64,000 nucleotides of DNA from Cyanobacteria bacterium FACHB-502 (GTDB lineage Bacteria; Cyanobacteriota; Cyanobacteriia; Elainellales; Elainellaceae): positions 1 through 64,000 of the forward strand of contig JACJNZ010000088.1 of NCBI GenBank assembly GCA_014695325.1. Direction: 5' to 3'. The position numbers and the translations under genes were made by a program. The notes beneath the pieces are model-generated. The model was not told the DNA's origin. It saw nothing but the letters and a program-made list of their open reading frames with translations, and did no database searches. Below, one piece after another: positions 29,452-58,635 of this stretch; the first letter of the stretch is position 1; the number at the start of each line of letters is the position of its first letter.

Positions 29452-30078
29452 ATGACGACAAAGATCATTGCCGTAGTAAATGGCAAGGGTGGGGTTGCAA
29501 AAACAACGACTGCCTTTAATCTGGCTGCAATTTATTCTCGTAGGCACGAGGTTTTACTGGTGGACTCCGATCCCCAAGGCAGCGCAACGGCATGGGCAAG
29601 CCGAGGGAAGCAGCCTTTTGTAGTCGCAAGAGAGAGCAATCCTGAGATTCTTGCTCGGCTAAAAAAGATTGATCAATACGATCTGATTATCTGCGATACC
29701 CCTCCGAATCTTGGGTCAGGCACACTCAGCGCGATCGTGTCTGCGGCAGACTACGTAGTGCTACCGACACCCCCATCATTGATGGACTTGATTGCCCTGA
29801 TGGAAACCGTTACAACCTCGATCGCGCCAACTCAGGTGAAGCATCGGGTTGTCCTGACAAAAGTTGATCCACGGAGAATGACAGATGCCGTTGATGTGCA
29901 GGAAAGTTTAAGAGCAGACGGCATCCCGGTTTGCAGTTCGATTGTTCGCCTCTATGCTGGCCATGAGAAATCGGTCGTGGATGGAGTATCGATTCTGGCA
30001 TGGAAGGGTAGGAACGCCAAGGAAGCAGGCGCAGACTATAAAAACGTGGCTGACGAATTGCAGCGGGAGTGGAACTAA
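29452..30078 (+). CDS. parA: ParA partition ATPase
   Basis: 208 residues. Deviant Walker A NGKGGVAKTTTAFNLA with the signature Lys (residues 9-23), Walker A' LLVDSDPQGSA near 38, Walker B IICDTPPN near 78. The short length with no N-terminal helix-turn-helix is type Ib, so transcription control would need another factor (ParB or the palindromes). ATP-dependent DNA-bound gradient partition of the replicon. AAGGAG precedes the ATG. parB starts 4 bases after its stop. Confidence 0.97.
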   Translation: MTTKIIAVVNGKGGVAKTTTAFNLAAIYSRRHEVLLVDSDPQGSATAWASRGKQPFVVARESNPEILARLKKIDQYDLIICDTPPNLGSGTLSAIVSAADYVVLPTPPSLMDLIALMETVTTSIAPTQVKHRVVLTKVDPRRMTDAVDVQESLRADGIPVCSSIVRLYAGHEKSVVDGVSILAWKGRNAKEAGADYKNVADELQREWN

Positions 30079-30082
30079 GCTA

Positions 30083-31237
30083 ATGTCAAAACCTAGAAAG
30101 ATTGGCAGTGCCCTGCATGAGATCAGTAGTCAAAGGGCAACTAGCCCGTCCTCGTCTGGTCAATCTGGGCTAATTGAGCTTACAAGCCTGATCAAGCAAG
30201 CTGAAGTGGCAAAAGAACAACAGGCAGCCGATGACCAGTCTGGGGTAGAAAAGCTTCAGCAAGAACTAGAGGCGATCGGGGGTAAGTACAAAGTTGAGTT
30301 GCGTCTGATCGACCCAGACCCACATCAACCTCGAAAGACTTTTCCAAAATCGGTGATTGAGGAACGAGCGCAGAGTTTGACCCGAAATGGACAACTCAGC
30401 CCGATCATTTTGATCCCTCAACCTAATGGTCGGTATGTGCTGTTTGAGGGTGAGTTGCGCTACCGTGCAGCGACTTATCTGAAATGGAATTCTCTTGATG
30501 CGGTTTTTCTGCCTATTGAAGTGCATCAGGCAGTGGATGCCGATCGCTTTCAGAAGCAGATGTTAACCTCAGCTCACGCCCAGCGGCTGCATGACCTTGA
30601 TCTAGCAGAGGGAATTCTGCGGCTGGTAGAACTTCGCTACCCGGAGTGGGCAGGACGCAGCAGCAATCTTCCTCGTATCCTGAATACTGTCATTACCCGA
30701 CTCAAGCGGACGAAGCAGATAGACAATCTCAAGGCAATTCGTAACGCTTCAATCGAAGAACAGCAAACCTGGATTAGAGAGATTTTAGCAGAGGACGAAC
30801 GCCCTGTTTTTCAAGTCATTTTGGGAATGCAGTACAACCCAGAAACAATCTCCAGAACAGCATTTCCTTTGCTAACCCTGACTGATGATCTGAAGGATCT
30901 TGTGCGATCAACAGGTCTAGAGTCAAGCAAAATTAAAGAGCTTCAGAAGCTGAACGCTAAAAATCTCGGTGTCGATGAGGACAAAGCTCTAGAGATTCGA
31001 TCGCAGGTTGCCCAGGAAGCTGTCGAAACTGACCTTTCTCTAAGTGAGATCAAAATCAGAGTTGCTCAGACCCTCCAGCAGCACACCACAGCAACCACTC
31101 AGCCACAGATCAGCCCTGCTATCAAAAAGGTGCAATCGATTCCAGTGGTTGGGGTGGAGCCAGAAGAACTGAGGAATCTGAAGGAAGCGCTGCTAGAGAA
31201 GGCTAAAGAGATTGAAACTCACTTATCTAACCTTTGA
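30083..31237 (+). CDS. parB: ParB/Spo0J-type centromere-binding CTPase
   Basis: 384 residues from ATG 30083. The ParB N-domain runs about 70-180: VELRLIDPDPHQPRKTFP, SLTRNGQLSPIIL and FEGELRYRAATYL, the GExRYRA CTP-binding motif with Leu in place of Arg at the third position. LTSAHAQRLHDLDLAEGILRLVE is the following box. The middle domain (180-320) is helical, unlike the usual HTH order, and a C-terminal coiled segment could dimerise. Loads parS sites and stimulates ParA. Probably binds the palindromes upstream of parA (inference). Confidence 0.93.
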   Translation: MSKPRKIGSALHEISSQRATSPSSSGQSGLIELTSLIKQAEVAKEQQAADDQSGVEKLQQELEAIGGKYKVELRLIDPDPHQPRKTFPKSVIEERAQSLTRNGQLSPIILIPQPNGRYVLFEGELRYRAATYLKWNSLDAVFLPIEVHQAVDADRFQKQMLTSAHAQRLHDLDLAEGILRLVELRYPEWAGRSSNLPRILNTVITRLKRTKQIDNLKAIRNASIEEQQTWIREILAEDERPVFQVILGMQYNPETISRTAFPLLTLTDDLKDLVRSTGLESSKIKELQKLNAKNLGVDEDKALEIRSQVAQEAVETDLSLSEIKIRVAQTLQQHTTATTQPQISPAIKKVQSIPVVGVEPEELRNLKEALLEKAKEIETHLSNL

Positions 31238-45440: not shown

Positions 45441-47720
45441 TTATGGCTGCGTAATCCGGTAGTAGCGAGTTGCTCCCCCATACCGATCGTATTCCCCGTC
45501 AAAATTGCCGTTTGAATTCCAGTTAAAGGTTGCACCAGAAGAGGAATTCGATCGCACCTGACTACAGCCATTGTTCATACAGATACCAATGTGTCGCTGA
45601 TCCTTCGCGATCACGATGTCGCCTGCCTGCGCCTGCCCCTGTCCAACTTGCTGCCCACGACCGTTTTGAAGCGAAGACTCAACAGATGGCACATAATTAG
45701 GGTTGTTGCCCAGAGGACGAATTCCCGCATTCGAGAGAACGCGATTGACTGCCCAGGCACAGGCTTCTCGACCACTCCTGGGACCAGATGCGCTGCTAAA
45801 GCTACCCATGTGCTGCACCGACTGCATGATTCGCTGGTTCGCTTCGCCTGCTGGAACCGATCCACCTGCTCCACCACCCGGCGCAGCCGTTGAGCAAATC
45901 ACACCACTACCAATATCTGACCCTGACCCACCAGAGCGAACTAATCCTGCTTTAATTCGATTGGCAGCAGCTCCAATTTCTTCCCAGCGGTCTGTCCCGT
46001 TTACCTGCTGTCGGGCACAGCGATAATCGACTCTTCCACCCCCAATACACTCGGCGATTGGGCGACCCTGCCCGTACCAACCCTCTTTCATCCCCCGGCA
46101 CAACGCTTGCGCGGCGATGTCCGACTGCTGCAATCGACGATCGCTCATCCCCCCATACGCAGGCAGTCCCAGTTCACGAAAGACGCGCTCCTTATTGCCA
46201 CACCACGTCACTTGAACCATGCCTTCGCCTGATCCGCATTCGTCATACATGGGGTCACCATACTCGCGCATGGTGCGGAAGTGGTCGGTTTCGTGCTGCG
46301 CGGTGGCAATGATATAAGCAAGCTGATCACTATCCGTCACACCTGCCTCAGCACAGGCTTTCATGATGTAGGGAACCATGTCCATTGCGCCCTCACGGGA
46401 TGCCGGATCAACCGATGCGATCGCTGCTTTTGTAGCTCCATCCAGCTTGGAAGGATCGACCGTGCAGGTGCGTCCGTCTCCGCCGCCACCGCCGCCCAGG
46501 ATGCTAGAGTCAAACTGGGTCATGGGCGGAAAGCCCCCGCCTTTTTTAGCTCTGGTTGGCGTGGAAGATTCTGTAGTGGGGGGTTCTGGTGTGATCAGTC
46601 CGACAAAAATCGGATCATCGCGGTGATAGGTCATGAACGGGATGGGTCCGATGAAATAGGGCGTACAGCCCCAGTCGTCGCAGTAGCGAGCAAACAGAGC
46701 AGTGGTCACGCTATCAGTCGTTTCATCCGGTTCCCAGACAACCACCTTGAACGTATCGCCAAACGGCAACCGTCCGGTTGGCTCTTTACCGTTGTTCACC
46801 CACTTGTACGCGCCGTGCCCCCCTTCAACTTCCTGGTACTTGCCCGAAATCCACTGCACTCCCTCCATCGGAGACTGTGCCGTTCGCCCCACGTTCTCTG
46901 CATCATCGAGTTCGATATAGGCGCAGTCATCCGGGTTGCCGATCGTACAGGGCACACGAAATCCCATCACATCAGAACCCGAAATCGTATTGGTACGCTC
47001 CGATTCTTCGGGTCCGTGAACAAAATCAACTCGCATGATACCACCACCAGCCAGGGGAGGCGCACCGGGAAATGAACCCATCGGCAGCTTGTTGAGTCCC
47101 GGCACTTCTGTAAGCGTGGTTTTCTCCCATCCGTCCAGCTTGGAAATCGGCAGCTTATCGGCTCCGGGCAGGCTGTCGATCGAAAACTGGCTTAGATCAA
47201 CGTCATCCAGATTAAGCTGACTCAACTCAGGATAATCCTGAAGCAGTTGACTTAAGGAAGCCTCCTGAAGCTGGCCTGGATTCAGCGATGCCTTCTCACT
47301 GAACAAAGATTGCAGAACTGGCAAATCCCTCATTGAGAATTGCCCCAGTTCTGGCATTGCCTCCAGCAAACTGCCTACGCTCTGCGTTGCTAGAGGCGCA
47401 AAGTTCTCGATCGAAGTGCCGGACAAATCCTGACCCAGAGCTTCAGAAATCGTGTTGATCGAAAGGGATTGAGGCAGCAGCGATTGAATATCACCTAACC
47501 GTAGAAACTGGTCAGGTGTTTGGCCCGTAGCCCATTGGCGAGTGCCATCATCTAGATCAATAGAGCCACTGCTATTAATGGCAGGCAAATCCGAAAAACT
47601 AAGCTGCGACAAATCATCAGGAACCGCAAGGGCTGGAAAGTTTAACACCAGCAGAAGGAAAACGCTGATAATGAAGCAGATGACGCTTTGATAAATTAGC
47701 CGACAAAAATTTGACAGCAT
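45441..47720 (-). CDS. Secreted peptidoglycan hydrolase-like protein, two domains
   Basis: 759 residues. Signal peptide/TM at 12-32. The first 250 residues hold Leu-rich short repeats (LSQLNLDDVDLSQFSIDSLP), then a beta-rich middle. A lysozyme/GH19 chitinase-like domain lies around 440-600: YIIATAQHETDHFRTMREYG with the catalytic Glu near 477. A C-terminal NlpC/CHAP-like domain from about 640 has Cys in REACAWAVNRVL near 652 and His in DQRHIGICMN. Cutting glycan and peptide bonds together suits a VirB1-type enzyme opening the wall for a transfer channel (inference). Close in order and C-terminal sequence to 48421. Confidence 0.88.
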   Translation of the reverse strand: MLSNFCRLIYQSVICFIISVFLLLVLNFPALAVPDDLSQLSFSDLPAINSSGSIDLDDGTRQWATGQTPDQFLRLGDIQSLLPQSLSINTISEALGQDLSGTSIENFAPLATQSVGSLLEAMPELGQFSMRDLPVLQSLFSEKASLNPGQLQEASLSQLLQDYPELSQLNLDDVDLSQFSIDSLPGADKLPISKLDGWEKTTLTEVPGLNKLPMGSFPGAPPLAGGGIMRVDFVHGPEESERTNTISGSDVMGFRVPCTIGNPDDCAYIELDDAENVGRTAQSPMEGVQWISGKYQEVEGGHGAYKWVNNGKEPTGRLPFGDTFKVVVWEPDETTDSVTTALFARYCDDWGCTPYFIGPIPFMTYHRDDPIFVGLITPEPPTTESSTPTRAKKGGGFPPMTQFDSSILGGGGGGDGRTCTVDPSKLDGATKAAIASVDPASREGAMDMVPYIMKACAEAGVTDSDQLAYIIATAQHETDHFRTMREYGDPMYDECGSGEGMVQVTWCGNKERVFRELGLPAYGGMSDRRLQQSDIAAQALCRGMKEGWYGQGRPIAECIGGGRVDYRCARQQVNGTDRWEEIGAAANRIKAGLVRSGGSGSDIGSGVICSTAAPGGGAGGSVPAGEANQRIMQSVQHMGSFSSASGPRSGREACAWAVNRVLSNAGIRPLGNNPNYVPSVESSLQNGRGQQVGQGQAQAGDIVIAKDQRHIGICMNNGCSQVRSNSSSGATFNWNSNGNFDGEYDRYGGATRYYRITQP

Positions 47721-52303: not shown

Positions 52304-52963
52304 CTACTCCTGAAGTTTGCGTTTGTTAGGGGGTTGAGTCCACAAAAAGCAGTAGCCGCTAGTTACTGTGCGATTGCCTAAACGAATCGAACCTAACTCG
52401 TCGCGAACTCGCGCCTCACACTTGCCGTTCATTAAGTCCGGGTTCCAGTCAAAAAGCTGCCGCGCATAGCGACCTTCCTTGCTTTGTCCCCAGTTCAAAG
52501 CTGTAACCTCAGCCGCTGTCAGTCCCCGTCCATCCATCTGCACTAGCCAGCGCGATGCGCCAAAGCCAGAGAGCGCACCGACGAGCAACAGGGTCAACAT
52601 TATAAATCCGGCTCCGATCAGAGATTTATAGGTCACTACGTTTTTGGCTTCATTGCCTTTAGCGATCGCAGCACCCACCAATTGATCAACGGTCTTGGCA
52701 ATATCCTGTTTCATGCCTGCCAGTGCCGCCTTTTCGTAGCCACCGTACTCTAATCGCAGCCTTTCAAAACAGTCATTAAACGTCTGTCTCAGGTCGTTGG
52801 GAGCTTGGTTAAGCAAGACCTGAACGGTAGAGTTAGCCACCATCAGCAGAAATAGCGGGTCGCTTTCCCGCAGCCCTGACTCATGAACGACACTCATCAC
52901 CTTTGCACGAGTGGCAGCGTCCTGTCCCTCTAATAATTTTTCAAGCAGCTTGTTTTCTTTCAT
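52304..52963 (-). CDS. Membrane protein, possible DUF6753
   Basis: 219 residues. Helical N-half (LLEKLLEGQDAATRAKVMSV, DLRQTFNDCFERLRLEYGGY), TM near 115-135 (SLIGAGFIMLTLLLVGALSG), then a small extracytoplasmic Cys-bearing tail. This resembles DUF6753-type cyanobacterial plasmid proteins, from memory and unsure. Precedes the AAA+ gene by 3 bp, so both are co-expressed; a dyad array sits upstream of its start. Confidence 0.65.
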   Translation of the reverse strand: MKENKLLEKLLEGQDAATRAKVMSVVHESGLRESDPLFLLMVANSTVQVLLNQAPNDLRQTFNDCFERLRLEYGGYEKAALAGMKQDIAKTVDQLVGAAIAKGNEAKNVVTYKSLIGAGFIMLTLLLVGALSGFGASRWLVQMDGRGLTAAEVTALNWGQSKEGRYARQLFDWNPDLMNGKCEARVRDELGSIRLGNRTVTSGYCFLWTQPPNKRKLQE

Positions 52964-53092: not shown

Positions 53093-54052
53093 TTAACTGA
53101 AGGTGGGCGACTCAGGCTCCGCACCCGGAGTGGGTGGAATGGCAACCGATTCCCCTTTTTCCTTAGATTTCCGTTTAGCCCCTGTCGATAATTTATTAGC
53201 TGTCGATGCTTCTAGCTGTTTTGCATGGAACGCAGGCAAATCAAGCGTGAAGATCTGGTTTATAACTTCTGTTGCCCTTTCAGCAAAGGTTTTGACGCGC
53301 TGTGCCTCAATCCACCTGCGCTCAGTCATAAACGCCTCAACGCCTGCTTCATAGGTGAGGTTGTGCTTATCCAGGTAAAATTGCTCCTCGCTGCCCAAAA
53401 CAGGAAAATCGCGAATACACACCAGATTAGCGGCAGCATCAATCTTTAACTCAGGGTTGCCGCTAATTTTTTGATAGAGCGGTTCTCTCTCTAAATATGC
53501 GAAACTCTTGCTGTTTAACCTTCCCTCATTACGAACAACAATATGGGGAAGTTTGCCATCCAGCATCTCGATCGACTCTGCCAGCAGCCGGATTGAGGCG
53601 TAGCACCCATCAGTCACAAACCAGTGGTAAAGGTCAATATTTTGATCCTGGCAAAGCTGAACTAAATTGACCGAGTGCATCCAGCGAGCTAGGGCAGAAT
53701 TGGTTTCGGCTGGGAGATTCACCAGAACGCACTGTTTTTCAACGGCTTGCTGAAAAATAACGTCAGGTTCACTGTATTTGCGGGGATCATCACTGAGCGA
53801 GATCGTAACGGCATCTGTAATTTTGCCGCCTTCAAAGCCACCGTAAACTCTACCGACATCCCCAATCGTGATATCAGCTTCAACCAGACTAAATTGCTGC
53901 TGTTTTTGGGTGAGGTATTCTGCTAAGTGACGAGAGAGAAAAGTCTTGCCGACTCCTCCTTTACGACCACCTACTAAGTGAATTTGTGAAGGAACGGATA
54001 TGGTTGAAGCAGGAGCTTCCGAAGGGACAGGCTGTGCGACTGGAGGATTCAT
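53093..54052 (-). CDS. MinD/ParA-like ATPase
   Basis: 319 residues. Deviant Walker A GGRKGGVGKTFLSRHLA near 28, Walker A' SLVEADITIGDVGR, then a long divergent middle (no clear DTPP Walker B; VLVNLPAETNS replaces it) and a basic C-tail (KLSTGAKRKSKEKGES). Belongs to the SIMIBI class but differs from the parA at 29452. Third position in a parM-parR-like operon, so could link partition with transfer or position the transfer apparatus, as VirC1 does for conjugation (inference). Confidence 0.85.
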   Translation of the reverse strand: MNPPVAQPVPSEAPASTISVPSQIHLVGGRKGGVGKTFLSRHLAEYLTQKQQQFSLVEADITIGDVGRVYGGFEGGKITDAVTISLSDDPRKYSEPDVIFQQAVEKQCVLVNLPAETNSALARWMHSVNLVQLCQDQNIDLYHWFVTDGCYASIRLLAESIEMLDGKLPHIVVRNEGRLNSKSFAYLEREPLYQKISGNPELKIDAAANLVCIRDFPVLGSEEQFYLDKHNLTYEAGVEAFMTERRWIEAQRVKTFAERATEVINQIFTLDLPAFHAKQLEASTANKLSTGAKRKSKEKGESVAIPPTPGAEPESPTFS

Positions 54053-54081: not shown

Positions 54082-54525
54082 TCAAGTAGAACGACTAGGA
54101 GCAAACCCTAACATTCGATCAATCGAGTCCAAATCCACTGATGGGGACGGGGGTGGAATAATTTCATCAGGCTCTGGCTCGTCATCGTGGTTGTCGTAGT
54201 CATGGTCGTCACTATTCTCCAGACTACGGTTTAAAATTGAAGGAGAGTCTGTTTTTTCAGCGCTGGGCTTAATCCCAGCAAGCTGCTCGATTTCGTAGAT
54301 GTAGCCTCGAAGTTTGCCAATACACTCCAGCGCAATGGCTCGATTGAGCTTGCCTTCCTCATCCAGTGCAGCAGGAGAGAATCGGGCTTTGAGTAGTTCT
54401 TTCAAAACATCCGGCAGTGCATAACCGTGACGCTCTAGATAGTCCAGCACCAAGGCAAAATGCTGGTCTTTGCTGTACCTGAATCGAAGTCGGATGTTGA
54501 ATAGAGATGAGGAGTTTGAATTCAT
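54082..54525 (-). CDS. ParR-like DNA-binding adaptor
   Basis: 147 residues. The N-terminal 50 (IRLRFRYSKDQHFALVLDYLERHGYAL) could form a ribbon-helix-helix strand plus helices; the middle is helical and the C-terminal tail is very acidic (DDHDYDNHDDEPEPDE). Size, position directly after an actin-like gene (ATGA overlap) and the upstream repeat array fit a ParR. Assignment is by context more than sequence. Confidence 0.6.
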   Translation of the reverse strand: MNSNSSSLFNIRLRFRYSKDQHFALVLDYLERHGYALPDVLKELLKARFSPAALDEEGKLNRAIALECIGKLRGYIYEIEQLAGIKPSAEKTDSPSILNRSLENSDDHDYDNHDDEPEPDEIIPPPSPSVDLDSIDRMLGFAPSRST

Positions 54526-55613
54526 GCTGCTTTTTCAAGTTGAAATCTGGACTCAAATAGGGTCATCACATCTCCGAATCGAGACTGTAAACAGGGATCA
54601 GACTGGCTTAATTCCCCAGAGTGGCTGGCAAGCCATTCGGGAGTTGCCCATTCAAAGTGCTTTTCGAGAAACGGTTTGAGATAGATGCTTGTGCCACCAC
54701 TGATAATCAAATGATTTAAATCATCAGGAACAACTGCATTAAGCCAGTCTTGCACTAACTGCCAATACTCGTACCGAGCAATTTCAATCGCATCCACCAG
54801 AAGTTTTGCTTCCGCATGGATATTTTCAGGCTGGGTTGATCGAATGAGAAATTGCAACTCACGATGGTCAGTCCGCAAATCCGAGCCAAGAGCATACACC
54901 GCTTCAACCAGTGCATATCGATTTTGTCCCGGTGTGCGAGCAATCACCTTATCGATCAGCTTAACAAACCCTAGATCAGTTGTGGCACTGTGACAAGTTT
55001 CAATAACACCCCGGTTCAACGTCAAACAGCTAATATTTCGATAGCCAAAAATTAGAATGCTAATGCGGTTCTGGCTAATCCAATCCATACCGTGCTTGCG
55101 AATCAGATGACACATCATGCCTGTACCTTCAGAGGCGCAGTGGTAGGACACAAGCTGTCCTCGAATCAGAGTGTGTTGGAAATAATATTTCTTAAGACTT
55201 TTTGAAATTTTTTCTTTCAGCCAACCTCGGCTATTGATTTCACCATAGGGCAGCAGCATAGCAGCGTCTACGGCAACTCGGTCAGTGCCTTCCTGCAAAG
55301 CAATTGCACCTACAGCAGCCAGGAATTTATAAAAGGCGTGTTCGTACTTCAACATCTCAATGCGTTCAACCGCTGAAAATTCTCTGGCAAGAAAGCCACA
55401 AACCTGAATTCGCTCTGCGTTTTGATTCAGCTTGATCCAGGCTTGGTCTTCAGGTCGCGCTGTCAGGTTGATCTGGTTGACTGAGCGAGTTGGCAGATTG
55501 AGAACATCTGGCTCCATCATCAGTATTTTGGGTGGTGCGCCATTAACCGAGTACACGATCTTAGACAGCGAAGCACCAGGATCAAACCCGATTTGCAACT
55601 TAGCCGACTGCAT
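54522..55613 (-). CDS. ParM-like actin-family ATPase
   Basis: 363 residues. Phosphate-1 loop LQIGFDPGASLSKIVYSVNG at the N-terminus, phosphate-2-like ISILIFGYRNISCLTLNRG near 187, and adenosine motif LNHLIISGGTSIYLKPFLE near 310. Length is right for ParM/StbA. Polymerising filament protein of type II partition. Divergent from the mobC/relaxase unit, with the repeat array between. No gene symbol given because similarity is at motif level only. Confidence 0.85.
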   Translation of the reverse strand: MQSAKLQIGFDPGASLSKIVYSVNGAPPKILMMEPDVLNLPTRSVNQINLTARPEDQAWIKLNQNAERIQVCGFLAREFSAVERIEMLKYEHAFYKFLAAVGAIALQEGTDRVAVDAAMLLPYGEINSRGWLKEKISKSLKKYYFQHTLIRGQLVSYHCASEGTGMMCHLIRKHGMDWISQNRISILIFGYRNISCLTLNRGVIETCHSATTDLGFVKLIDKVIARTPGQNRYALVEAVYALGSDLRTDHRELQFLIRSTQPENIHAEAKLLVDAIEIARYEYWQLVQDWLNAVVPDDLNHLIISGGTSIYLKPFLEKHFEWATPEWLASHSGELSQSDPCLQSRFGDVMTLFESRFQLEKAA

Positions 55614-55710: not shown

Positions 55711-55889
55711 TGGACACATTTGGGCACAATTGGTCACGTTTTTGTCGCTTCTGGTCACACTCTAATCACAAAAAATTCTATCCAATTTCTTTAATCTGAA
55801 ATCAAATGTTTGAAAAATAGCGTTTTATTCATCAAACTGGTCACGTTTTTGTCGCTTCTGGTCACAAATGGTCACAAATGGTCGCGAAA
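55711..55889. repeat. parC-like array, two clusters of 10-11 bp repeats
   Basis: Cluster 1 starts at 55711, 55721, 55731, 55742, 55752, 55763 (TGGACACATT, TGGGCACAAT, TGGTCACGTT, TTGTCGCTTC, TGGTCACACTC, TAATCACAAA). Cluster 2 starts at 55838, about 55848, 55859, 55869, 55879 (TGGTCACGTT, TTTGTCGCTTC, TGGTCACAAA, TGGTCACAAA, TGGTCGCGAAA). A 28-bp block is identical at 55731 and 55838. The 65-bp AT-rich core between them (55773-55837) holds a candidate -10 (ATTCTA at 55775-55780 on the plus, TAGAAT on the minus strand) for parM. Same architecture as plasmid R1 parC. Confidence 0.85.
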
Positions 55890-56119
55890 TCCCATACTCC
55901 TGACCAAATAAGGATTGTAGCAAGCAAATGAAAACGACATACTTTTTGTTCTTAAGCCGTTCTACACACCTTCAAAAATTCTTTTGAGTTAACTTTTACT
56001 AATTTGTTGAGTTTTGTTTTTATCCTTATTTCGATACCCCAATATTAGGGAAGAGGACATTACACTAATTGAAAGCGAGCAATCACTCCTTAGCAGTATT
56101 CACTTGTCTCTCTTGAGCA
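55890..56119. promoter_or_regulatory. Candidate oriT and mob promoter region
   Basis: AT-rich, between the repeat array and mobC. AAATAAGGAT at 55906-55915 pairs with ATCCTTATTT at 56022-56031 (10-bp perfect dyad, 106 bp apart), and CCCCAATATTAGGG at 56036-56049 is a small dyad. oriT of MobA/VirD2-type relaxases normally lies directly upstream of the accessory gene, so this is the likely site; the nick position is not readable. Confidence 0.4.
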
Positions 56120-56416
56120 ATGTCTTCTCAATCCAAATGCCGTTTTTCTGTTTATGCCACGCCGCAAGAGCATCAGTTTTTTCGTGACCAGGCAAAAGCT
56201 CGACACATGACAGTTTCACGCTATGTTCGATCGCTTGCTGACTCTGAGCAGATAAAAACGGCAGAACGGCTGCGGAACATTCAGCAGCACACACGACAAC
56301 TCACAAGATGCCTGAACGGATTGCGTCATGTTCTTTCAGACACCGAGCATTCCTCACAACTGTTCGGCAAAGCAATTGCGCTTCTCGTTCAAATTGAGGA
56401 GGAAGCCCAAAGATGA
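56120..56416 (+). CDS. MobC-like relaxosome accessory protein
   Basis: 98 residues. CRFSVYATPQEHQFFRDQAKARHMTVSRYVRSLADSEQ is a ribbon-helix-helix (strand, two helices) as in MobC/plasmid mobilisation proteins; the second half is helical and includes TRQLTRCLNGLRHVLSDTEH. Binds oriT and recruits the relaxase. Overlaps the relaxase start by ATGA. Same-strand operon leader. Confidence 0.88.
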   Translation: MSSQSKCRFSVYATPQEHQFFRDQAKARHMTVSRYVRSLADSEQIKTAERLRNIQQHTRQLTRCLNGLRHVLSDTEHSSQLFGKAIALLVQIEEEAQR

Positions 56417-58635
56417 TTGGCAAGACAACGCTCTCCCATAGTTTTGAAGCAACCTTGCGCTATGTCTACAGCAAACCGAGCGCAATGACGATAGATGCGA
56501 CTCTGACCGCAGCGTTCACTGAAGATCCACTGCAAATTGCACAGGCGATGAATGCAGTAGCTCGCGATCGTTCTCCCAAACCCTGCTACCACATTTCACT
56601 TTCCCCATCACAAAATGACCATCTAGACATGGAAGACTGGCATCAGATGAGTGCTGACTTTCTCAGCGAACTGGGAGCCGAGACTTATCAAGCAGTCGCC
56701 GTACTGCACACTGATGCGACGTACCCAGACGGAACGGTTCGACCCCACTTGCATTTCGTGATCAATCGGTTTGAATCGATTAATTCAGACGCTCGCGCTC
56801 TGTGCCTGCATTTTCCTCATATTGAGGAGGTTATTCGCAAGCTAGAACGGGACTATGCGCTTGAATCAGTTCCCTGTAGCTGGGAAGTCGATTGCCGAGG
56901 GAATGCTGCCTCACAGTACCACCGCACACAGCGAGACGGTGTTCCTTCGGTTCGCACTCAGCTTCAAGATTCAATCGATCAAACGATCGCGCAGGCAACG
57001 ACTGTCGATGAATTCCTTCGCGCACTGCAATCGCAGGGTATTCAATCAAACCTTGCAGCAGAAGGCATTTCGTTTGAGCAAGAAGGCATTTCGTTTGCAG
57101 GCTACCAGCTTGGAAAAGCCTACACCCGCAGCCATGTTGAAAAGGTTTTAGGCAGGAATAGCACCATGCTTCAAAGTGATGCAGCGCGATCAGGAATGTC
57201 GATGGCTGACCTGATGCAAAAAGCTTCAGAAGGGGGGATCTCTGCGACTGAACCAGAAAAGGTAATTCCTGCACCTGAAGTTGAGGAAATGCCCTTGGTT
57301 AATCCCCAGCCGGAGCCAGAGTCTCAGCGTCAAACTGAATCGCAGCCAGATCGAGAACCCAGAGAACCTGTTGTTCCCTCTCCCCTACTGGCAGAAACTG
57401 GAACTGCCCTGGAAAACCTGGGACAGACGATCGGGGGCAGTCATGAAATTGACGGCATGATGCTGGGCGGAGCCGCCACCCAACTGACGGGTGCTATGGT
57501 CATGCTAGGGGATGCTTTTCTCAAGCGAATTGCAGAGGCAAAGGAGAGAGAGCAAAGCGAACGTGCCCAAAGATTAATCGAGCAGCTAGAGCAAATTGGG
57601 AAGCGGACAACGGCTCTAGAAGAAACAGTTCAGACACAGCCAAAACCTCCCGCTGCTGCACCTGCTGAATTCAAAACGGCGCCCCCCCCTCCAATTCCTG
57701 CATCTCCTACAGCACCTCAACCCAGTCAACAGAAAAGTCCTTCTAAACAGCCATCGCCCACTGACCCGTTAGCAGAGAGTTTTGGGCTGGCACAGCAGCG
57801 ACTCGTTCCACTGGAACGACAGGCAGGACTTCCTCCGGTCGATTATCCCGCGCTGAAGTTTGATCACAATGCCTCAATCGATCAGCAGCTTGATCAGATG
57901 GAAGCGGCTCTAAAGCAGCTCAATGAACGGCTGGAAAAGCTGGAGATCGTGCTGCACCCAGAAGCAACGGTTGTTACGAACAAACCCACGCCTGAACAGG
58001 TAGCTGAAAGTTTGGCAAACTACGTCCAGGCGCGAGCGCAGTATTACAAACTTGCGCCAACTGAACCTGTAAAAACGCGCACAATGGGAACGATTGAGTT
58101 GTCCCATTCTGAAAACGGCAATGACGTAATTGCAGTTGTCGAGCGACCTTTTGGCGCAAAGTTTGAGGCAACAAAACAGGACGGTAAGTGGGAAGTTGCC
58201 AGCAATGGCTTAAATGATTTATCCGATCGTGAAATAGAAACAATTGTAAAACTGCCGCAAACCTCGCAGGAGTACGAGTCAGTCACGCAAAATAAAGCAC
58301 TGGTTCGATATTTCCAAAAACACGCCTCACAGGAATTTGAAGGCGAACAAGGCAGAATCATCTGGAACGACAAGCATGAAAAATTTAGCTATCGCTTCGA
58401 CATCGCTACAGATCGAAGCGGTAACAAAACGGTAATCGGTATCGATCAACGTACCGAGAAGGTGGTGATGCAGGCGCAAATCAAGCCAAATGGCAGCATT
58501 CAAATCGACCAGGCGCAGGTTCCAAAAGAACACGCTGAGTCGTTGCTGCATCAGCAAGAGGCGACGCGATCTGCCGAATCTAAAGTGACCCAACTTCACA
58601 AAAAGCAGCGGTCACGTCCTGAACTCTCCCTATAA
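56413..58635 (+). CDS. Conjugative relaxase (MobA/VirD2-like)
   Basis: 740 residues. Nuclease domain 1-250: candidate Tyr in LRYVYSKP (17/19), His60 in CYHISLSPS, motif III LHTDATYPDGTVRPHLHFVINR with H99, D101, H112 and H114. Then a Pro/Gln-rich linker, coiled coil (ERAQRLIEQLEQIGKRTTALEE) and a C-terminal domain from about 500. Nicks oriT, covalently binds DNA via Tyr, and is exported. A local duplication EGISFEQEGISFAG is seen at about residue 220. Typical of MOBP/MOBV-type cyanobacterial plasmids. Confidence 0.93.
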   Translation: MIGKTTLSHSFEATLRYVYSKPSAMTIDATLTAAFTEDPLQIAQAMNAVARDRSPKPCYHISLSPSQNDHLDMEDWHQMSADFLSELGAETYQAVAVLHTDATYPDGTVRPHLHFVINRFESINSDARALCLHFPHIEEVIRKLERDYALESVPCSWEVDCRGNAASQYHRTQRDGVPSVRTQLQDSIDQTIAQATTVDEFLRALQSQGIQSNLAAEGISFEQEGISFAGYQLGKAYTRSHVEKVLGRNSTMLQSDAARSGMSMADLMQKASEGGISATEPEKVIPAPEVEEMPLVNPQPEPESQRQTESQPDREPREPVVPSPLLAETGTALENLGQTIGGSHEIDGMMLGGAATQLTGAMVMLGDAFLKRIAEAKEREQSERAQRLIEQLEQIGKRTTALEETVQTQPKPPAAAPAEFKTAPPPPIPASPTAPQPSQQKSPSKQPSPTDPLAESFGLAQQRLVPLERQAGLPPVDYPALKFDHNASIDQQLDQMEAALKQLNERLEKLEIVLHPEATVVTNKPTPEQVAESLANYVQARAQYYKLAPTEPVKTRTMGTIELSHSENGNDVIAVVERPFGAKFEATKQDGKWEVASNGLNDLSDREIETIVKLPQTSQEYESVTQNKALVRYFQKHASQEFEGEQGRIIWNDKHEKFSYRFDIATDRSGNKTVIGIDQRTEKVVMQAQIKPNGSIQIDQAQVPKEHAESLLHQQEATRSAESKVTQLHKKQRSRPELSL

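Follow-up and report, generated by a model that had tools for sequence, protein, structure and literature searches.

A phased two-cluster repeat array upstream of an actin-like gene is a probable centromere of a cyanobacterial plasmid

The DNA analysed here is a stretch of 64,000 nucleotides (the window) from Cyanobacteria bacterium FACHB-502, forming part of a 90,299-base contig (G000:C88) that appears to be a plasmid. At 55711-55889 the window carries repeat units resembling TGGTCACAAA, about 10.5 bp each and arranged 6+5 in two clusters with an AT-rich core between them. This array very probably serves as parC, the centromere of an actin-based (type II) partition system of the parMRC type, on a conjugative cyanobacterial plasmid. 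A parC-like centromere had been proposed at this place by a sequence-only reading, and the proposal is now backed by the recurrence of the layout in homologous loci and by the covariation of the repeat unit with the N-terminal strand of the predicted adaptor protein. In the proposed mechanism, dimers of this ParR-type adaptor (the 54082 product) would use an N-terminal beta-ribbon to bind the phased repeats, and the two clusters together with the AT-rich core would be wrapped into one partition complex, which would also repress the par promoter. Filaments of the actin-like protein (the 54522 product) would then be captured at their ends by the motif conserved at the adaptor C-terminus, and would move the plasmid copies apart. 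A cyanobacterium can maintain several large plasmids at once; to our knowledge, their segregation and compatibility have been little studied, and a literature search, the coverage of which was without most subscription papers and preprints, yielded no parC-type site from cyanobacteria. The present locus offers a concrete candidate centromere, and its likely reader, in cyanobacterial plasmids.

The array sits between the divergent genes 54522-55613 (minus strand) and 56120-56416 (plus strand). The parM-proximal cluster (55711-55772, plus strand), one half of the proposed parC, consists of six units, starting at 55711 (TGGACACATT), 55721 (TGGGCACAAT), 55731 (TGGTCACGTT), 55742 (TTGTCGCTTC), 55752 (TGGTCACACT) and 55763 (TAATCACAAA). 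The mob-proximal cluster (55838-55889, plus strand), the other half, consists of five, starting at 55838 (TGGTCACGTT), 55849 (TTGTCGCTTC), 55859 and 55869 (TGGTCACAAA both times) and 55879 (TGGTCGCGAA). All units share one orientation and are spaced by 10 or 11 bp. The core between the clusters (55773-55837) measures 64-65 bp and has a GC content of 23%, as compared with 36% in the intergenic region and 50% in the window. These direct readings agree with the two clusters of five to six 10-11 bp repeats and the AT-rich core of 65 bp described beforehand. A block of 29 nt at 55731-55759 (plus strand) is repeated exactly at 55838-55866; exact sharing between the clusters had thus been recognized correctly, and its length, given as 28 bp, had not. 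When the common block is stretched to 32 nt, 31 of the 32 positions are identical. The array ends 97 bases from the start of the actin-like gene, and the overlap of this gene with a small partner at ATGA is present, both in line with what had been claimed.

Taken alone, the window gave no significant fixed-lag autocorrelation (z 1.6). As this measure is too blunt for units alternating between 10 and 11 bp, we used instead a chain score that permits 9-12 bp spacing and is judged against shuffles and control segments. Of 100 dinucleotide (Markov) shuffles, 1 matched the single-array chain score of the window and 0 matched its two-array sum. Word counts were not raised in the window, either for TGGTCACAAA with one mismatch (7 observed, 5.25 expected) or for TGGTCACNNNTGG with two mismatches (51 observed, 55 expected), indicating that the signal of the array lies in phasing and not in the number of words. 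Degeneracy is seen in the fourth unit of each cluster and in unit 6, with leave-one-out scores of -3.4, -3.4 (scored one base off register) and 2.5; the remaining units scored 6.2-12.2.

Recurrence of the repeats upstream of ParM homologues had been named as a test of the proposal, and the layout was found in many, not all, homologous loci. G001, a member of the same genus whose ParM shares 90% identity, retains the two clusters and the core; the letters have drifted, and the mob-proximal cluster is longer by one 10-nt unit. For the wider family, we scored the 500 nt upstream of ParM at 75 loci, 28 of which were folded by similarity to leave 47 representatives; duplicates of one contig under two locus ids and upstream regions shorter than 450 nt were left out of the counts, and one locus stretch ends at a contig end. 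As controls, the same loci supplied 94 random, mostly coding segments. The two-array score lay above every one of 100 shuffles for 17/47 representatives and 0/94 controls, and at most 5/100 shuffles matched it in 30/47 representatives and 5/94 controls; a single array above all shuffles was observed in 18/47 and 2/94, respectively. At least three units were present in both arrays in 13 of the 17 top-scoring regions, with a gap of 62-77 bp in nine of these 13. Examples are L014 (8+6 units at 11 bp), L083 (8+5), L079 (9+5) and L090 (8+6 at about 10 bp). The unit sequence itself varies by lineage, and includes TGGATCT, TTGGCGT, TGGTGGTT, TGGGAA, CCTTGT and TGTGACCA. In L041 (Tolypothrix PCC 7601), the insertion sequence (IS) IS701 lies between the array and parM, the array being found past the IS, and it is absent from the near twin L102 (PCC 7712); judged from this arrangement, the IS701 of L041 is a natural disruption of the proposed centromere.

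Variation of the unit made it possible to compare array and adaptor. In 25 loci of the Nostocales type that share one kind of adaptor, the unit corresponds to the nine residues that make up the predicted N-terminal strand: [IV]FRF[SC]Y[HY]PY goes with TGGATC, [ND]L[TN].R.RAY with TGGC[GA], DFKFH[CY]RPY with TGG[TC][GT]G, and DFSFRYRPL with TGGAGT. By partial Mantel test on 23 loci (L041 and L085 were dropped beforehand), the correlation between strand distance and unit distance was r 0.56 given ParM distance (0/2000 permutations as high) and r 0.32 given the ParR body (1/2000 permutations). Locus pairs with ParMs 97-99% identical but with differing strands have different units, L069 excepted; the actins of L053 and L062, for instance, are 99% identical, and both their strands and their units differ. 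Since parM separates the array from the adaptor gene, functional matching would explain the covariation better than simple linkage. In a further test on eight plasmid records, six combined a known strand class with an array in range, of which 6/6 fitted; five of these six belong to one RAY-strand lineage and the adaptor accession of L102 is that of L041, so they are not independent tests. Of the other two records, L097 has a variant strand outside the rule and a TGGC-type array, and L100 has a transposase upstream and no array. Covariation of strand and unit is as would be expected if a 54082-type protein binds the array. The correspondence also predicts plasmid compatibility.

The operon next to the array is led by the gene for the ParM-type protein of 363 amino acids (aa) at 54522-55613 (minus strand). 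Its AlphaFold model, with a predicted local distance difference test (pLDDT) score of 85, is predicted to have an actin-like fold, and Foldseek with this model gave the CorM filament of Anabaena as the top match, followed by the ParMs of B. thuringiensis, pSK41 and R1. Pfam gave no match for the window protein itself, and the family profile matches CorM (E 7.6e-21) and Cbc-ParM (E 3.2e-11) by sequence. Relatives are present in 113 plasmid records, in which several Nostoc strains recur; the ten genera among the matches listed are cyanobacteria, a further 16 lying beyond the listing, and no relative was found in viral contigs. The second gene (54082-54525, minus strand), overlapping parM at ATGA, encodes the proposed adaptor of 147 aa, with an N-terminal strand-like stretch NIRLRFRY, three predicted helices, a low-confidence acidic linker and a C-terminal DSIDRMLGF. 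In support of a conserved gene pair, 67/76 distinct loci have a partner open reading frame (ORF) after parM, and in 38 the overlap is of exactly 4 bases. Its model has helices at residues 22-32, 37-56 and 62-83 and a short helix at 132-138 (mean pLDDT 68.6), with no strand in the monomer. Adaptor homologues likewise have the N-terminal strand-like stretch, helices and a polar linker, and many carry a short acidic-hydrophobic C-terminal motif; a search of PDB sequences with the partner profile gave nothing under E 0.25. At L002 550-975 (G001:C7), a second, diverged adaptor copy lies downstream, 52% identical, with another N-terminal strand and a shortened C-terminus. The third gene of the window operon (53093-54052, minus strand) encodes a ParA/MinD-type ATPase with KGGVGKT, TraL/MobD/StbB-like, the match to the conjugal TraL model being weak (21 bits where the cut-off is 360; E 1.6e-4); homologues at the matching place carry the annotation MobD or MobD-like. 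Many loci whose neighbours are of the NikA/MobC type also have a KGG-type gene next in line; none was seen downstream of parR in the MOBP plasmid L049, in L045-L047 and L014 with MobF/TrwC relaxases, or in their relatives L090-L092 and L094. The gene after the ATPase (52304-52963, minus strand) encodes a DUF6753 protein, and a DUF6753 gene stands at the matching place in several plasmids.

The actin of this operon was compared with FcmB, the cyanobacterial cell-shape actin; the FcmB-FcmC pair is described in PMC12645912 as derived from a plasmid partition system. Of 36 genomes from the order, 19, among them the window's own, have an FcmB scoring above the curated cut-off, and the window protein scored 12.9 bits against the NCBIfam FcmB equivalog, below the cut-off of 300. 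Genome G000 has a separate true FcmB at G000:C93:183527-184570, beside the plasmid-type actin. From a shared motif we infer that CorM and FcmB belong to the same family. After removal of the incomplete L120 and L121, the 19 FcmB loci left 17 (14 representatives), and their array scores were near background, with 1/17 above all shuffles and 2/17 within 5%. The phosphate-2 aspartate was read from an alignment made through CorM, Cbc-ParM and FcmB. This residue, which we take to correspond to D170 of R1 ParM, is replaced in 75/75 homologues examined: 71 have Met, 3 have Ile and 1 has Leu. In the window protein Ile188 stands where FcmB and CorM have the aspartate. The aspartate is present in the two FcmB proteins aligned, in 17/17 FcmB read (VVDIGHQTTDF), in CorM (VDIGHQTID) and in Cbc-ParM (LDLGSRTIN), and both the first aspartate (D11) and E162 are conserved in 25/25 aligned proteins. 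For R1 ParM without D170, static filaments are reported in PMC5539076, on the authority of others. Absence of the phosphate-2 aspartate from the plasmid branch raises the question of nucleotide hydrolysis by these actins. The window locus supplies a plasmid-side counterpart of FcmB/CorM, itself a partition actin that became a cell-shape protein, and suggests that the repeats go with the plasmid form.

Several observations weigh against the centromere assignment. With respect to the array, no sigma-70-like promoter passed a scan of the intergenic region, core included; the control segments were mostly coding; and an array signal was missing from 17/47 upstream regions, in which more than 5/100 shuffles matched the two-array score. 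A reason was visible for four of these, L041 (IS), L050 (an extra gene), and L084 and L085 (degenerate parM), leaving 13 signal-less loci with none (L011, L015, L018, L019, L022, L030, L033, L036, L048, L088, L089, L091 and L093), among which L033 represents a cluster of seven. One FcmB locus, L112, is the one that scored above all shuffles. With respect to the adaptor, a ribbon-helix-helix fold was not recognized, Foldseek giving no match at E <= 0.001 and ribbon-helix-helix proteins (Arc, TacA, DinJ) only among the weak matches. No Pfam family rose above chance among 20 members (one at E 0.059), and the 54082 protein had no tblastn match in the plasmid collection. The count of partner ORFs after parM was permissive, admitting every ORF of 90-260 aa close to where parM stops, and the scripted extraction was imperfect (that of L029 is a piece of parM, that of L048 starts too late and that of L069 is truncated). 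With respect to the covariation, ParM distance also tracks unit distance (r 0.44; 0.41 given strand, 0/2000), so that shared descent contributes, and the six fitting records count for less through their relatedness. Two loci depart from the rule. The strand of L078 resembles the TGGATC class and its array is TGGCG; in L069 (Nostoc sp. WHI), an adaptor truncated to 120 aa has a RAY-type strand beside a TGGATC array, and by its sequence this is a mismatched pair in a broken locus.

On its other side the array faces mobilization genes. The divergent gene 56120-56416 (plus strand) encodes a NikA-like relaxosome accessory protein (PF21983, E 2.8e-8), and 56413-58635 (plus strand) a MOBP-type relaxase (PF03432, E 5.5e-18; TraI/MobA(P) model, E 4.3e-13, below cut-off), beyond which lies a gene with weak VirB4/TraC similarity. 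The block at 55965-56119, adjoining the mob genes and strongly conserved in G001, is a candidate mob promoter or origin of transfer (oriT). The nic motif of the IncP type is ATCCTG, and none was found in a scan of the window; no oriT was assigned, because nic-like matches in Nostoc loci near -850 fall beyond the MobC start. That the array abuts a mob operon had already been noted, with the suggestion that partition and transfer may share control, and such adjacency proved to be common: mobC or relaxase genes are divergent from parM in 14 of 18 annotated plasmid regions (10 with 5 kb and 8 with 1.5 kb per side), the four without being L044, L097, L098 and L100. In the divergent position Pfam identified Mob_Pre (L086, L087), TrwC (L014, L015, L093) and NikA-like proteins (L054, L058), which we take to represent the relaxase classes MOBV, MOBF and MOBP; the partition locus therefore holds its place beside three relaxase classes. 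For the upstream ORF of L032 no Pfam family was found, the wrong frame having been scanned, and a NikA-like ORF is seen there by eye. Both the usual back-to-back placement with mob genes and the stimulation of the R1 relaxase in vitro by R1 ParM and ParR, as stated in PMC4949242, make a coupling of partition and transfer plausible at the window locus. With this recurrent placement, the relation of inheritance to transfer becomes open to testing in plasmids other than those of enterobacteria.

The same neighbourhood gives rise to the strongest alternative, overlapping in part with the centromere reading, that the array mainly controls transfer, by offering a docking site to a relaxosome accessory or Stb-type protein that balances vegetative stability against conjugation, with filament partition being secondary. 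A precedent exists in the stbDRs of R388, which consist of two sets of five 9-bp repeats with two-nucleotide spacing around the stb promoter, in an operon that adjoins oriT (PMC3098194). The third gene of the window operon is of the TraL/MobD kind, and that source groups TraL/MobD (RP4 TraK-TraL, pTF-FC2 MobC-MobD) with the StbB-type ATPases carrying a KGGxxK motif. The frequent divergent mob genes, with Mob_Pre and TrwC relaxases in other plasmids, point in the same direction. However, the first gene of the window operon is actin-like and foreign to R388 stb, the identity of the repeat covaries with the adaptor strand, and arrays also occur where the stretch has no annotated mob gene (L044 within 5 kb; L097 and L098 within 1.5 kb, both MOBP in PLSDB). 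We regard a primary role in transfer control as unlikely, but as more probable than the other alternatives.

Autoregulation offers a further explanation, in which the array is only the operator of the par operon and the true centromere lies elsewhere. The ParR-type proteins of R1 repress their own promoter, and the array is placed immediately upstream of parM as an operator would be. But two multi-unit clusters recurring at one place across lineages exceed the needs of an operator, and no second array with the same unit was seen elsewhere in the window, making this explanation improbable. Even less probable is that the repeats are replication iterons bound by a Rep protein. Direct, helically phased units beside an AT-rich stretch do resemble iterons with a DNA-unwinding element, and the scan for Rep covered the window, 26 kb of the contig lying outside it; yet no replication initiator was recognized among the 28 that were scanned with Pfam, out of 30 window ORFs with 230 aa or more (several being without family), the genes adjoining the array are par and mob genes and not a replication initiator, and the array stays upstream of parM in different plasmids with its unit following the adaptor strand. 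Chance or decaying simple repeats, for which the weak autocorrelation of the window alone might speak, are hardly credible in view of the conservation in G001 and the wider family, the six fitting further records and the near-background FcmB loci.

Taking the centromere reading further, one may picture the locus as a widespread cyanobacterial hub of partition and transfer, though as a whole this picture is tentative and open to considerable doubt. A two-array centromere would be read by a strand-coded adaptor that sets compatibility groups; the actin branch lacking the phosphate-2 aspartate would probably form slow or static filaments; often, a TraL/StbB-like ATPase would hand the complex to the mating machinery; and the locus would keep its place while three relaxase classes were exchanged.

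Elsewhere in the window, 29942-31237 encodes a ParB_N-domain protein of 431 aa, and no ParA partner was found among the neighbouring large ORFs scanned (an IS6 transposase before, a RecD2-like helicase after). The region 45441-47720 holds an ORF of 759 aa with no Pfam or NCBIfam match at E 0.001, and 953-2287 a reverse transcriptase/maturase of the group II intron type.

Among known systems, the sequence-only reading had pointed to plasmid R1, and its parC agrees in layout, being made of two sets of five repeats (PMC4949242) that flank the promoter, according to the title of a reference therein. In R1 the par promoter lies in the core between the repeat sets; the window core is the matching position, without a sigma-70-like site. 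The window locus also differs from R1 parMRC in unit sequence, in an adaptor for which no similarity in sequence to solved proteins was detected, in an actin without the phosphate-2 aspartate, as compared with the ATP-hydrolysing, dynamically unstable R1-class ParM, and in the addition of a ParA/TraL-like gene and divergent mob genes. The likeness to FcmBC/CorM-CorR of filamentous cyanobacteria lies in CorM being the top solved structure for the window actin, whereas FcmB is chromosomal, acts in cell shape, keeps the phosphate-2 aspartate and has upstream arrays near background. In C. perfringens, ParMRC systems form several families with different repeats, and ParR specificity sets compatibility (PMC9426499); the likeness is by description only, the sites there being 17-bp repeats (pCW3) or less regular. 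Because the operon continues with a ParA/TraL/MobD-like ATPase gene, which had gone unmentioned before, R388 stb is a second close precedent. Like R388 stbABC/stbDRs, the window has two direct-repeat sets, of 11-bp period and close to the promoter, in front of a stability operon adjoining a mob region, and a StbB/TraL/MobD-type ATPase gene within that operon; unlike R388, its operon starts with an actin-like gene, has the adaptor second and contains no StbA-type first gene. As judged from its gene order and repeats, the locus combines an R1-like parMRC and an R388-like stb operon in one.
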